DNA from: Euzebyales bacterium
Lineage (GTDB): Bacteria > Actinomycetota > Nitriliruptoria > Euzebyales > JAHELV01
Assembly: GCA_036374135.1 (NCBI GenBank)
Contig: DASUUK010000076.1
Span: forward strand, 1 to 43,751
Length of the DNA stretch: 43,751 bases
Direction of reading: 5' to 3'
The position numbers were made by a program, and so were the translations under genes. A model generated the notes under the pieces. It ran no database searches, was not told the DNA's origin, and saw only the letters and a list, made by a program, of their open reading frames with translations. Positions 15,055 to 22,499 of this stretch are shown piece by piece. Position 1 is the stretch's first letter. Every line of letters begins with the position of its first letter.

Positions 15055-15435
15055 TCAGTCGGCGTTCGCAAACTCGCGGAACGCCTCGAGCGCTCGCGGG
15101 GCGTAGTCGCTGGCCGCTGGGCCACCGCCCAGGAGGATGGTGACGCTCAGGGTCTCGGCGACCTCCGCCTCGCTGGCGCCCCGCCGTGCGGCGCCGCGCG
15201 CGTGGTAGGCGATGCATCCCTCGCAGTGCTCGGACACAGCGAGCGCCAGGGCGATGAGCTCCTTGTGCTTCGCTGACAGCGCGCCATCTGTCATCGTGGC
15301 CTGCGAGGTGTCGAGGAACCCCTTGAACGCGTCTGGAATCTGCCGGCGCAACCGCTTGGTCGGTTCGCGCAGATCCCGCAGATACTGATGCGCGTCTGTG
15401 CCGTGGCTCGTACGGTGCTCGTTCGTGGCGGTCAT
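15055..15435 (-). CDS. carboxymuconolactone decarboxylase / AhpD-like protein
   Basis: A 126-residue all-helical protein of the CMD/AhpD family. The redox CxxC is C71-E-G-C74, with H78 in SEHCEGCIAYHARGAARRGA; the Glu upstream and His downstream form the AhpD-type relay. Such proteins act as alkylhydroperoxidases or as decarboxylases in aromatic catabolism; the CxxC favours the peroxidase branch. The ATG at 15435 has GGGAGG seven bases upstream. It is divergent from the flavin monooxygenase, with 317 bp between them, suggesting a shared regulatory region. Confidence 0.85.
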   Translation of the reverse strand: MTATNEHRTSHGTDAHQYLRDLREPTKRLRRQIPDAFKGFLDTSQATMTDGALSAKHKELIALALAVSEHCEGCIAYHARGAARRGASEAEVAETLSVTILLGGGPAASDYAPRALEAFREFANAD

Positions 15436-15752
15436 CTGCGGCCTCCCTGTTTCCGGGCCACCAACGACGGGCGGTCGTTGCCGCGCCGTCGCCGTCCGCG
15501 GCGCTCGGCGTTCCACCGCGGACTCCACCCACCATGTGACGCCCGGCGAGACGTGGCCGGGACCATCGTCCGCGCTCGATGGGGTCGTCCAGTCCGGTGA
15601 ACGATCGACGCCACGCTCTGGTTGGTCGCGCCGTCCCGGTCGTTCCCGCCCTTCGGTCAGATCCTGGCCGCTCACCACGCGCATGATCGAACATGGAGAC
15701 CGCGGGGCACACGACGGTGCGCGCTGACGCCAAGCCAGGGAGGACGGAGGCC
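15436..15752. other. 317-bp divergent intergenic region
   Basis: This stretch separates the AhpD-like gene from the flavin monooxygenase. It contains no coding pattern I trust. I could not pick out a convincing -35/-10 pair on either strand, although both flanking genes have strong ribosome-binding sites. Confidence 0.4.
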
Positions 15753-17884: not shown

Positions 17885-18110
17885 ACGATCGCTTCGAGCT
17901 GCCCACGGTCGCCGAGGTAGGCGCGCGCCAGTGCGCCGAGTCCGTCGAGGGGCGTGGCGGCCACGTCCCGCAGGGCGGCCCACAGGTCGTCGACACGTTC
18001 GGATGCCAGCCGGTAGTGCACATAGGTGCCGGTGCGTCGCGTGGTGACGAGCCGGCGCGCGCGAGCGCGCTACTTCCTGCACCTGCGGGAGGTCAACCGC
18101 ACCGGGCCGG
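17885..18110 (-). pseudogene. decayed ArsR-family regulator remnant
   Basis: The minus strand encodes RRLVTTRRTGTYVHYRLASE (about 18064-18005) followed by ALRDVAATPLDGLGALARAY, the wing and C-terminal helix of an ArsR-type winged-helix protein; this particular form usually continues into a rhodanese domain. Upstream, LPQVQEVARSRA in another frame would be the recognition-helix region, and a TAG interrupts the main frame. No start codon or complete HTH survives and no rhodanese follows. The remnant stops within about 130 bp of the second 36-bp repeat. It lies downstream of the methyltransferase on the same strand and once probably regulated that metalloid cluster. Confidence 0.5.
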
Positions 18111-18325
18111 CGGCATGGCCGCGTGGACCGCCGACGGCTACGCACCGCCACCCTCCCGCTGGTCGGTCCGGGTTACGGCGTGCGGGACCGGCCACTGCTC
18201 GTTGTCCGCCAGACGTCCGAGTGGGCCGCCGGACACGTCCCGGCCTGTCGGTGTTCGCGGTGCGCGGCCTGAGCGGCCGCGATGGTCGTGCTCGAGGCCG
18301 GCTGCCGAGGAGGGTTGCGCCGTGC
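18111..18325. other. unassigned 215-bp stretch
   Basis: Between the methyltransferase stop and the ArsR remnant. Short high-GC open frames exist on both strands but none has a start, ribosome-binding site and recognisable domain together. It may be part of the decayed regulator. Confidence 0.3.
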
Positions 18326-19747
18326 TCACCGGGGCCTGCGGGCGCGGAAGTTGACCCCACGCGTGCCGAACTCGGCCACCTCCCTGCGGGGTCTGGCGGC
18401 ACCCTCGAAGATGTTGGCGCTCCACGTGATCTCGAAGTCCGTGAACCCGGCGGCCACGACCGTGGCCTTGAGCTCTGCCTCCAGCAGAGCCCCTGCGATT
18501 CACCCGGTCCACAGATCGATGTCGCGCTTGGCGTCCTCCGGGATCTCCCGCTCGACGGTGATGTCGGCGATCTGCAGCCGTCCACCGGGCCGCAGCACCC
18601 GGAAGATCTCCTCGAACACCAGCGACTTGTTCGGCGACAGGTTCACCGACCCGTTGGAGACCACCAGGTCGGCCCAGCCGTCGGAGATCGGCAGCGACTC
18701 CGAGAAGCCCGCGCGGAACTCGACCGTGTCGAACCCGGCCGTCGTGGCGCCGGCGCGCGCCTTGTCGAGCATCGCCTCGGTCATCTCGACGCCGATGACA
18801 TGGCCGGCCGGACCCACCGCCCGTGCCGCGATCAGCGTGTCGAGACCCGCGCCCGAGCCGATGTCGACCACGTACTCACCCTCCGTGGGCATGCCCATCG
18901 CGAACGGGTTGCCCGTCCCGGCGAACGACGCGATCACGTCGTCGGGTAGTCCGTCCAGCCACGCCTCGTCGTAGCCGTTGGTCGACAGCGCCGTCCGGCC
19001 GGTGTTGAAGTGATAGCCGCGATCGGGGTCGCGGGCGACGGCGGTGTACTCACGGGTGACCTCGTCGCGGAGGATCTGCACCGCGGCGTTGTCGTCGGAG
19101 AACCGTGACCGGATGAACGCCGGGTCGTCGCGCACCGTGACTTCGGGCACCACCGTGTACGTCGTGAACGTGCCCGTGTCGAGCACCTCGGTACCTTCGA
19201 TCACGCGGTCCCCGCCGGGCGCTCCCAGATCGCGGTAGGCCGACTCGGTCATGAGGAAGTACTGCTTCTCGCGGACCGAGTTCTTCGCCAGCCGGTGCAG
19301 CGTGATCACGTCCGGACCCGACAGCGTGGGGCGCTGGCCGACCTGTGTGAACAGCGCCTCGCCGGAGTGTGCGACGATCTTCAGCTTGAGGTCGCCGACG
19401 ACGCGGCAGGCGTTGCAGTTGCAGACCGAGTAGGCGCCGATCTCCACGAGCCGTTGCGCGAACGTGCGGAACAGTCCGCGCACACGGTCCACGAGGCTGG
19501 CGCCGCGCCGGCGCCAGATATCGGCGTCGCCGCTCTTGACCGCGTACAGGAACAGCGCGTCACCCTCGACCGCCGAGAGCCGCAGCGGCACGTCGATCTG
19601 CCGGATCAGGCTCTCCAGCAGCTCGCCGATGATTGTCTGGCTGTGCCGCAGCGCCGCGTCGTGCTCGATCATGAACTGCGTGTAGCCGCTGATGTCGGCC
19701 AACAGCAGCAGCACCGGCTGCGTCGAGCCATCGGTCATCGTCGTCAT
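18326..19747 (-). CDS. DUF2652 / ArsM-like methyltransferase fusion, predicted selenoprotein (Sec416)
   Basis: Read through TGA at 18502-18500 as selenocysteine, this is a 473-residue protein. Residues 10-190 are a DUF2652 cyclase-like domain (LLLLADISGYTQFM, VEGDALFLYA, VAHSGEALF) with a CxCxxC motif (CNCNAC). Residues about 255-473 are an SAM-dependent methyltransferase of the arsenite-methyltransferase type: VVDIGSGAGLDTLIAA, MTEAMLDKA, VVSNGSVNLSPNKSLVFEE, VLRPGGRLQIADI. At DIDLWTG-U-IAGALLEAEL the family normally has Cys, one of the arsenic-binding cysteines. After the TGA the same frame remains coding for 57 more residues with typical family sequence (FEGAARPRREVAEFGTRGVN) to a normal TGA. 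A nine-pair stem-loop follows the codon. The ATG has AAGGA six bases upstream. It sits 35 bp after a flavin reductase gene. Role in metalloid methylation is inferred. Confidence 0.8.
18470..18492 (-). promoter_or_regulatory. bacterial SECIS hairpin after the Sec UGA
   Basis: On the minus strand, GGGCTCTGC (18492-18484) pairs with GCAGAGCTC (18478-18470), nine pairs with one G-U, closing a five-base loop TGGAG. The loop begins 17 bases after the UGA and has G as its second base, as in bacterial SECIS elements that SelB reads. The spacing and loop agree with the known bSECIS pattern; the hairpin also overlaps coding sequence, as it must in bacteria. Confidence 0.7.
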
Positions 19748-19782: not shown

Positions 19783-21186
19783 TCAGGTGACCAGCGGCTG
19801 GGAGCCCGGGTCGAGGACGGTGACCAGCCCGCGGGCGTAGGCGCCGATGGCCTCGCCGATGCCGCCGTGGAAGGTCGGGAAGGCGTAGATCATGCTGCGG
19901 AGGGTGTCGAGCGGTAGCCGGGCATGGACGGCCAGCGCCAGCATGCCCAGCGTCTCGCCGGCCTCGGGGCCGACGGCGGTCGCGCCGACCATCACGCGCT
20001 CGTCGCGGTCGACGACCAGCTTGAGGACGCCGGCGTTGCCGGGTCCGTGCAGCCACCCTCGGAAGGTGGCGGGCACCTGCTTGACGACGACGTCCACCGT
20101 GAGGCCCTGCTCGCGGGCTGCGGCCTCGGTCAAGCCCACCGCGCAGACCTCTGGATCGGTGAATGTCGCCCGCGGGGGTGGCCGGTCGTCGGCGGCGGTG
20201 GGCTCGAGCCGGAGGATGTCGTCGGCGACGATTGCCGCCTGGTGCAGCGCCATGTGGGTGAGCATGGCCGCGCCGGTCACGTCGCCCAGCGCCCACACGC
20301 CGTCGGCGACGCGACACCGCCCGTCGATGGGGACATGGCCGGCCGCCGGGTCCACGCCGACCGTGTCGAGGCCGAGGGCGGCGACGTCGATCGTCCTGCC
20401 TGTGGCGACCAGCAGCCGCTCGGCACGCACCGTCCCGTCGCCGGTGGTCACCGCGATCTGCCCGTCGCCGGCCGACACCTTCTGGACCGGAGATCCGGCG
20501 TGCACGGCGATGCCCTCGCCCGCCAGCGCCGCGGCGACGATGTCCGACGCCTCGGGCTCCTCGGCCGGCAGCAGCCGATCGTGCTGCTCGACGATGGTGA
20601 CCGCGGCGCCGTACCGGGCCAGCACCTGCCCCAGCTCGCAGCCCACCGTGCCGCCGCCGAGCACGATGACCGAGGTGGGCAGCCTCTCGGCCTGGATCAC
20701 ATCGTGCGTTGTCCAGTAGCCGACGTCGTCGAGCCCGGGGATGGTGGGGATCGCCGGCTGTGAGCCCGTCGCGAGCACCACCCCATGGCGGGCGGTGTAG
20801 GTGTCGTCGCCCACGGCCACGGTGCCCGGACCGGTGAGCCTGCCGTATCCGCGGACGAGCGTGCCGCCGCGGTCTTGGAACCGGGCGACGGCCGCGGAGT
20901 CGTCCCACCCGCCGGTGACCTCCTGCCGCACCCGTGTCGCCAGGAGCTCCCAGTCGGGCGTGACCTCGGCCCGCCCGGCAACGCCGTTGACGCGGCGCGC
21001 CTCCTGCAGCAGGTTCGCGGCGCGGATCATCAGTTTCGACGGCAGGCACGCCCAGTAGGCGCACTCACCACCGATCAGGTTCGGCTCGACGCCGACCACA
21101 TCAACGCCGGCGCCCAACAGCCGCAGTGCCAGATCCTCGCCGCCGGTCCCGACGCCGACCAGCACGACATCCGCCATGTGCTCCAT
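19783..21186 (-). CDS. pyridine nucleotide-disulfide oxidoreductase (MerA/LPD-like)
   Basis: A 467-residue FAD flavoprotein of the dihydrolipoamide dehydrogenase/mercuric reductase family. The FAD Rossmann motif is G11-V-G-T-G-G16, the redox-active disulfide is C42-AYWA-C47 followed by LPSK, the NAD(P) motif is VLGGGTVGCELGQVLARYG, and the second FAD motif is GVWALGDVTG. The C-terminal interface reads FPTFHGGIGEA; the usual catalytic His of the HPT motif is Phe, as in mercuric reductases, but the MerA cysteine pair and N-terminal metal domain are missing. It therefore reduces an unknown disulfide or electron acceptor. The ATG at 21186 follows a GGAGGT box. It leads an operon with the methyltransferase fusion 35 bp downstream, which suggests a reductant supply for metalloid chemistry. 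Confidence 0.88.
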   Translation of the reverse strand: MEHMADVVLVGVGTGGEDLALRLLGAGVDVVGVEPNLIGGECAYWACLPSKLMIRAANLLQEARRVNGVAGRAEVTPDWELLATRVRQEVTGGWDDSAAVARFQDRGGTLVRGYGRLTGPGTVAVGDDTYTARHGVVLATGSQPAIPTIPGLDDVGYWTTHDVIQAERLPTSVIVLGGGTVGCELGQVLARYGAAVTIVEQHDRLLPAEEPEASDIVAAALAGEGIAVHAGSPVQKVSAGDGQIAVTTGDGTVRAERLLVATGRTIDVAALGLDTVGVDPAAGHVPIDGRCRVADGVWALGDVTGAAMLTHMALHQAAIVADDILRLEPTAADDRPPPRATFTDPEVCAVGLTEAAAREQGLTVDVVVKQVPATFRGWLHGPGNAGVLKLVVDRDERVMVGATAVGPEAGETLGMLALAVHARLPLDTLRSMIYAFPTFHGGIGEAIGAYARGLVTVLDPGSQPLVT

Positions 21187-21404
21187 CCCGCCACCTCCAG
21201 GCCGTCCGACCCACGGCCGGCTGACCCCAGCCGGGGGCACCCTCACGCCGTGACGATACTCCACCACCCGCCGTGGCGACCCCGAAACGTAGGAAATGGC
21301 GCATCCCGTCCCTTGCCATCGCAGGCCGCAGGCGGGCGCCGCACACCGCATGCGCGCGTCGGGGGTCGACGCCGTGCCCGCACACCCGCCTCGTCTCACG
21401 AGCG

Positions 21405-21597
21405 TCAGGCGCGGGCGGCGGGTGATGAGGTACCGGCGCAGCAGACCCCGCGGGCCGCGTCGACCGCGCCTCGCCTGCCGCTCGGCGAAGTCGTCGGCGC
21501 CGACGACGAGCGCGAGCTCGTCCGCCTCCGCGCCCCACTCGCGCACCCACGCCTCCAAGGTCGCGATCTGCCGCCAGACACGCGCGTGACGCCGCAC
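21405..21597 (-). other. possible small coding remnant upstream of the flavin reductase
   Basis: From an ATG at 21597 the minus strand reads MRRHARVWRQIATLEAWVRE and on through a helical, Arg-rich stretch to about LTLVRRG, with codon third positions almost all G or C. The frame then stays open, with poorer codon use, into the flavin reductase. It may be the start of a decayed gene. I recognise no family. The rest of 21187-21404 shows nothing I can name. Confidence 0.25.
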
Positions 21598-21623
21598 GCG
21601 TGCGTGGAAGAATGCGGCTCCTC

Positions 21624-22499
21624 ATGACGCAGCCGGACGAAACCGTGGACGACGACGGACACACCGGGCACGAGGACCGTGCCGAGGACATGGACGTCGG
21701 TCCCGGGACCGGACACGGCGCCGCGTGGAGCGCGGCCGCCGACGACTACGACCGCTGGTGGGCGGACCTCGGCGCGCCGGTCTGGGATGTGCTGCTCGAC
21801 GCAGCGGCGGTAACGCGCGGCACGCGGCTGCTGGACGTTGCGTGCGGGCCGGGGTGGTTCCTGCGCATGGCGGCTGACCGCGGCGCTGTCGTGGCTGGGA
21901 TCGACGCCGCCGAGCGGATGGTCGAGCTCGCGCGGGCGCGGGTGCCCGAGGCCGATGTCCGCCTCGGGGGCATGGAACGGCTGCCGTGGGCGGCGGCCAG
22001 CTTCGATGTCGTCGTCGCGATCAACGCGATCCAGTTCGCCGACGATCCGGTGGACGCGCTCGCGGAGATCGCGCGGGTCGTCGAGCCAGGCGGCAGCGTC
22101 GGGGTGTGCGTGTGGGGTCCCCGCGAGGACCGGCACGTGCTGGACATCGACCATGCCGTCCGCGCGCTCGTGCCCAACGACGCCGATGCGCCCGACGAGC
22201 CGGAGGACGACCACCCGTCCGTGCCGGACTGGTCCGGCCCCGGCGCAGTCGAGGGGCTGATGCGCGATGTCGAACTGACGCCGACCGACGCGCGGCTGGT
22301 CGACACGCCGCTGCTCCTGCACGACCGCCAGATGCTGATCGAGGCGTTCCTGTCGGACCTGCAGCACTCGGAGGCGGCGCACGTCGCCGGGCTCGACGCG
22401 GTGCGGGACGCGATCGGAGCGGCGGCCGCCCCCTACCGCCGACCCGACGGGTCGTACCTGATCCCCAACACCTTCAGGACGGTCATCGCCACCGCCTGA
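21624..22499 (+). CDS. class I SAM-dependent methyltransferase
   Basis: A 291-residue Rossmann methyltransferase of the UbiE/Methyltransf_11 type. After an acidic 30-residue lead, WSAAADDYDRWW precedes motif I LLDVACGPGWFLRMAADRG, then motif II VAGIDAAERMVELARARVPE, motif IV FDVVVAINAIQFADDP, and VVEPGGSVGVCVWG. It would methylate a small molecule, which the sequence does not identify. The ATG at 21624 is preferred because GGAAGAA lies eleven bases upstream; an ATG at 21612 is in frame. It is divergent from the flavin reductase and convergent with the DUF389 gene. Confidence 0.85.
   Translation: MTQPDETVDDDGHTGHEDRAEDMDVGPGTGHGAAWSAAADDYDRWWADLGAPVWDVLLDAAAVTRGTRLLDVACGPGWFLRMAADRGAVVAGIDAAERMVELARARVPEADVRLGGMERLPWAAASFDVVVAINAIQFADDPVDALAEIARVVEPGGSVGVCVWGPREDRHVLDIDHAVRALVPNDADAPDEPEDDHPSVPDWSGPGAVEGLMRDVELTPTDARLVDTPLLLHDRQMLIEAFLSDLQHSEAAHVAGLDAVRDAIGAAAAPYRRPDGSYLIPNTFRTVIATA

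Follow-up and report, generated by a model that had tools for sequence, protein, structure and literature searches.

A predicted selenocysteine-containing ArsM-family methyltransferase with an N-terminal DUF2652 domain in a Euzebyales bacterium

Introduction

The window analysed here, a stretch of 43,751 nucleotides from a Euzebyales bacterium, carries on its reverse strand a methyltransferase gene whose reading frame contains a TGA codon. This raises the question of whether the codon ends the protein or is read as selenocysteine and, in the second case, on which substrate such a methyltransferase would act. An earlier note on this DNA, made from the letters alone, had proposed a selenocysteine-containing, ArsM-like methyltransferase. 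Selenocysteine in ArsM proteins has been known since 2007; Cys/Sec pairs in ArsM are credited to Fomenko 2007 in the papers that cite it (PMC9312934 and PMC13188914). ArsM selenoproteins have also been found in GOS (PMC2398784) and counted as 41 proteins in 39 organisms (PMC5029168), and UxxG has been given as the Sec motif of ArsM (PMC13188914).

Results

Gene and domain organization

The frame opens with an ATG at 19747 and runs for 415 codons to the TGA at 18502-18500. It then continues in the same frame for 57 codons to a second TGA at 18328-18326, as the earlier note had it, giving a 473-residue product in which the first TGA stands at position 416 (Table 1). The N-terminal part contains a DUF2652 domain (PF10851; Pfam 88 bits against a gathering score of 22.1, residues 40–163), which adds to the description in the earlier note, and Methyltransf_31 covers residues 289–417 with 94.8 bits.

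The NCBIfam model for arsenite methyltransferase, NF008823, gives 221.4 bits, under its cut-off of 263, and the models of known ArsM double-selenoproteins give 191–212 bits, far under theirs. Because the protein falls under every NCBIfam cut-off, standard annotation probably ends it at residue 415. Truncation by the current family models is very probably to be expected, and the earlier suggestion that standard gene calling would cut off the readthrough part is thereby supported as probable.

Table 1. Positions of the predicted selenoprotein gene, its parts and its upstream neighbour in the window
Feature	Position	Strand	Remarks
Predicted selenoprotein gene, DUF2652 – ArsM-like methyltransferase	18326..19747	-	473 aa, predicted Sec at 416, stop TGA 18328-18326
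In-frame UGA (predicted Sec416)	18500..18502	-	aligned to Cys224 of CmArsM
57-codon readthrough part	18329..18499	-	purifying selection, dN/dS 0.107 vs same-genus orthologue
SECIS-like hairpin 3' of the UGA	18470..18492	-	GGGCUCUGC UGGAG GCAGAGCUC, conserved by covariation
DUF2652 domain	19259..19630	-	residues about 40-163; CxCxxC at Cys109/111/114
ArsM-like methyltransferase domain	18329..19090	-	residues about 220-473; no Cys, one predicted Sec
Pyridine-nucleotide disulphide oxidoreductase, upstream neighbour	19783..21186	-	MerA/lipoamide-dehydrogenase type, below family cut-offs

Conservation of the in-frame UGA

Homologues were collected from genome contigs (loci L002–L007) and from matches in 199 related genomes. 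In the resulting alignment 34 of 36 sequences have TGA at exactly the column of residue 416 and the other two have TGC (Cys). The TGA-bearing sequences come from at least five phyla, namely Gemmatimonadota, Acidobacteriota, Myxococcota, Chloroflexota and the phylum of the window itself, and the surrounding motif LWTG-U-IAGAL is kept across them. Canonical ArsM proteins have Cys at this column, so that the position named in the earlier note, where ArsM-type proteins carry Cys, is confirmed by the alignment with Cys224 of CmArsM. A sequencing error, which would have undone the proposal, is excluded because an independent genome of the same genus and more than 30 others carry this TGA as well.

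The same-genus homologue (L010), from an independent species, is 89% identical to the window protein. Between the two genes dN/dS is 0.107 over the 56 aligned codons after the TGA, compared with 0.126 for the first 205 codons and 0.129 for the stretch up to the TGA, and 16 of the 22 changes downstream of the TGA fall in third positions. A plain truncation would not be expected to look like this, as had been argued earlier from the preserved downstream coding. The codon could still be read as a true stop, in which case the protein would be truncated or the gene a pseudogene and the downstream similarity a relic; TGA is a stop in the standard code, and the NCBIfam scores all lie under curated cut-offs. 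Purifying selection beyond the codon, its occurrence in several phyla with Cys as the sole alternative, the covariation of the hairpin and the complete selenocysteine machinery of the genome (both described below) make this reading highly improbable.

A second alternative is that the UGA is decoded as some other amino acid, for example as Trp through a near-cognate tRNA or a reassigned codon. The homologue at locus L006 has two extra in-frame TGAs, one of them at a position where the others have Trp. The alternative residue at column 416 is, however, always Cys and never Trp, TGA is the usual stop of the window genes, and the hairpin is retained with UGA but not with TGC; the chance of this reading is accordingly very small. 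The Chloroflexi homologue itself (L006:2940-3716) may, with its two further TGAs, represent a pseudogene, an assembly error or another code.

The hairpin downstream of the UGA

A hairpin with a UGGAG loop begins at the eighth base past the TGA and is formed from nine pairs, or ten if the closing U-G pair is counted; it corresponds to the nine-pair hairpin of the earlier note. Over 41 nt its minimum free energy is -18.2 kcal/mol (z = -2.6); folding is equally good in 2 of 200 shuffled sequences, so that the fold of the window sequence taken alone is only moderate evidence for a SECIS element.

The comparison of the homologues is far more informative. In the 34 TGA-bearing sequences 94.0% of the cells of eight hairpin pairs are paired, against 85.0% (sd 1.4) after shuffling, and 21 cells show a double change, against 7.0 (sd 2.0); none of 500 shuffles reaches the observed value of either. 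Columns 14 and 30 switch in step between C-G and G-C, columns 15 and 29 likewise change together from C-G to U-A, and in one instance an Ala/Gly change (GCC/GGC) is balanced on the opposite arm by GGG/GGC, which is synonymous. Sliding the register of the hairpin lowers pairing to 27–51%, and the two Cys versions (L025 and L035) retain just 4 of the 8 pairs. As the shuffles ignore the relatedness of the homologues, these last two observations weigh more. Taken across the homologues, the covariation is decisive for a predicted SECIS-type structure that is conserved, with pairs kept by compensatory changes. An Rfam scan of the window gave no match.

Selenocysteine machinery

The genome to which the window belongs contains each component that the earlier note had proposed to look for. 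Profile searches gave 449 bits for selA (cut-off 268), 314 for selB (cut-off 242), 69 for tRNA-Sec, selC (gathering score 47), and 349 for selD (cut-off 125). The selD gene (G000:C74:8268-9188) itself carries an in-frame TGA, in HGAGUACK, adjoined by a strong hairpin. Two genes similar to that of the formate dehydrogenase alpha subunit (G000:C74:27005-28891 and 21275-22018) likewise have in-frame TGA codons, and are probably further selenoprotein genes.

Among the related genomes selA is present in 26 of 30 with the TGA-bearing gene, one as a fragment only, and in 113 of 169 others (p = 0.03), a co-occurrence that is statistically weak because most relatives carry selA. The four TGA-bearing genomes without a selA match are G056, G059 and G060, which are 71–78% complete, and G130, which is 98% complete. 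In G059 selB is present despite the missing selA match; in G130 neither a selA match nor a convincing selB was found, and its TGA homologue (G130:C250, L031) may lie on a misplaced contig or in a genome that has lost the machinery. The idea that the Cys versions mark genomes without selenocysteine machinery was rejected, as three such genomes (G034, G039 and G058) have selA.

An in-frame UGA flanked on either side by conserved coding sequence, Cys or UGA in the homologues, a conserved hairpin and selA, selB, selC and selD are thus all found together. The best explanation of the observations as a whole, and one that we hold with high confidence from the sequence comparisons, is that the gene encodes a genuine selenoprotein, an ArsM-family methyltransferase with an N-terminal DUF2652 domain and selenocysteine at residue 416.

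Active site and substrate

By both sequence and fold the best PDB matches of the window protein are ArsM structures, represented by CmArsM, CrArsM and human AS3MT, with 6cx6, 4fr0 and 5evj at the top of the fold search; the AlphaFold model (overall pLDDT 57.8) reaches confidence in much of the methyltransferase domain and not beyond it. Superimposing the arsenic ligands of CmArsM on the protein by alignment places Sec416 at Cys224, a Thr at Cys72 and a Gly at Cys174. Sec416 is the sole Cys or Sec of the catalytic domain, the only cysteines of the protein (109, 111 and 114) being those of DUF2652. In a tree of 59 methyltransferases all three of Cys72, Cys174 and Cys224 are present in nine canonical ArsM proteins of the same phylum, and position 174 is Gly in 39 of 39 sampled Sec proteins as well as in 11 proteins with Cys at 224.

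The term 'ArsM-like' used in the earlier note therefore holds for fold and family, including the SAM methyltransferase domain, but two of the three ligands of ArsM/AS3MT are missing, the NF008823 cut-off is not reached, and arsenite methylation is not to be assumed. The CmArsM variants C174A and C224A are inactive toward iAs and MMA, and C72A is inactive toward iAs (PMC3877260). Since the equivalents of Cys72 and Cys174 are missing and the corresponding CmArsM mutants are inactive, plain methylation of arsenite by the window protein appears unlikely. The view that the protein is an ordinary arsenite methyltransferase, with Sec standing in for one of the three As-binding cysteines and As(III) methylated for detoxification, would agree with the ArsM family and fold, with the Sec at the Cys224 position and with the failure to find a closer ArsM homologue in the genome. 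It is hard to reconcile with Thr and Gly at the two other sites, with the lack of Cys at 174 in every sampled Sec protein, with the loss of activity of C174A on iAs and MMA, and with the neighbouring genes scanned in the window, among which no ars gene was recognised; we consider it doubtful.

The DUF2652 domain

Among the genomes searched, the fusion of DUF2652 to the methyltransferase is found only in two species of the window's genus. Five other DUF2652 (PF10851) proteins of the phylum share the domain and its conserved CxCxxC (Cys109/111/114 in the window protein) with no methyltransferase in the frame read, and four of the five continue by eye into a region that looks like SRPBCC/START.

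By its motifs (ADISGYT...EGD...) DUF2652 resembles a class III nucleotidyl-cyclase homology domain. It might then make a cyclic nucleotide or sense a ligand, in which case the methyltransferase would serve as the output of signalling and not in detoxification. The ADISGYT and EGDA motifs, which we liken to those of class III cyclases, and the restriction of the fusion to two species would fit such a role. A Lys preceding the GD is usual in class III cyclases, however, and is not in place here (SAVEGDA), and most of the homologues that lack DUF2652 retain the Sec enzyme, which leaves this role improbable.

Phylogeny and gene neighbourhood

The tree joins the window protein and its same-genus homologue (99/98) to proteins of Gemmatimonadota, Acidobacteriota, Myxococcota and Chloroflexota and not to those of their own class, which suggests horizontal transfer. 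Other genomes of the order and class have two methyltransferases in tandem, one with Sec and the other with Sec or Cys, adjoining a sigma factor gene in several of them. Such pairs of ArsM-derived proteins, in which both members carry Sec or Cys at the corresponding site, occur at L061, L062, L065, L063 and L060; upstream lie a sigma factor (Pfam, L061) and a small Cys-rich protein that by eye resembles an anti-sigma factor. A Cys-type member (L060:6684-7895) has a C-terminal extension that looks cupin-like by eye (HTHPQAHEAVMVSGQGRL).

Neighbouring genes were chosen by GC content by codon position, longest-ORF calls being unreliable at this GC content. The pyridine-nucleotide disulphide oxidoreductase is the upstream neighbour in both species with the fusion (the window and the same-genus genome G002), and in G002 it is followed by DsrE, ArsR-rhodanese, MBL-rhodanese and MFS genes. 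This neighbourhood suggests a role in sulphur, selenium or metalloid chemistry. On the forward strand at 18050-18330, immediately beyond the 3' end of the gene, rhodanese-like fragments (GMAAWTADGYAPP and VRQTSEWAAGHV) lie in different frames, as if a rhodanese gene had decayed there; for the second motif G002 has a match at the DNA level. At 15055-15684 on the reverse strand the window also encodes an AhpD-like carboxymuconolactone decarboxylase with a CEGC motif, which matches the ArsM_AhpD_UU and arsenosugar-associated peroxidase-like models, both below cut-off.

Discussion

The window protein shares with the known ArsM selenoproteins (NF008823/PRK11873) the ArsM fold and a Sec where other homologues hold Cys, and its UIAG fits UxxG. 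Unlike NF008823 members it stays at 221 bits against the cut-off of 263 and is fused to DUF2652. It also lacks the other two As ligands, in contrast at least to the nine canonical ArsM proteins of the tree. The models NF041537 (ArsM_AhpD_UU), NF041536 (ArsM_DUF2284_UU) and NF047649 (MTase_UXPK_star) likewise describe an ArsM-type domain with UxxG (PMC13188914). Their methyltransferase part is matched at the 191–212 bits given above, but the protein has no AhpD, DUF2284 or UXPK-star C-terminal part and remains far below the cut-offs of 510, 575 and 460 bits, and the AhpD-like protein of the window is encoded separately, unlike the fused ArsM_AhpD_UU. In the tree, the tandem 'LMFKDEIQ' methyltransferases found in the order and class of the window form a clade separate from the window protein; like it they have Gly at 174, and where it has Sec they have Sec or Cys. 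No closer copy was found in the genome of the window. Among the papers listed by a literature search, none was on a DUF2652 fusion. What is new here is the DUF2652 fusion, the score below every NCBIfam cut-off and the absence of the Cys72 and Cys174 ligands.

The following mechanism would accommodate these features. SelB carrying Sec-tRNA-Sec would recognise the hairpin just 3' of the UGA at 18502-18500, for which the comparative support is strong, and selenocysteine would be inserted at residue 416. At the position of Cys224, Sec416 would act through its lone selenolate, holding a soft substrate or activating it, and SAM would supply the methyl group; candidate substrates are an arsenical, either bound to a thiol or alkylated beforehand, and species of selenium, tellurium, mercury or persulphide. 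The neighbouring flavin disulphide reductase, or else the thiols of the cell, could keep the residue in the reduced state, and, more speculatively, DUF2652 could serve as a sensor or as a donor of further metal ligands. Handling of a soft substrate by Sec416 for SAM-dependent methyl transfer is the most likely role, given roughly an even chance. The fuller proposal is more tentative, at somewhat below even confidence. Here an ArsM-derived clade without the tris-cysteine site would use a single selenolate on a substrate other than arsenite, coupled in this genus to a cyclase-like DUF2652 whose CxCxxC may sense or hand over a metal or metalloid.

The covarying hairpin also contributes a SECIS family with good support, in which one can see synonymous and amino-acid substitutions follow the pairing of the RNA. 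The proteins themselves amount to a natural experiment on the ArsM active site, where two As ligands have been lost and the third is kept, usually as selenium. The window enzyme makes it testable whether a soft element can be methylated with the help of one selenolate alone, and which element that would be.
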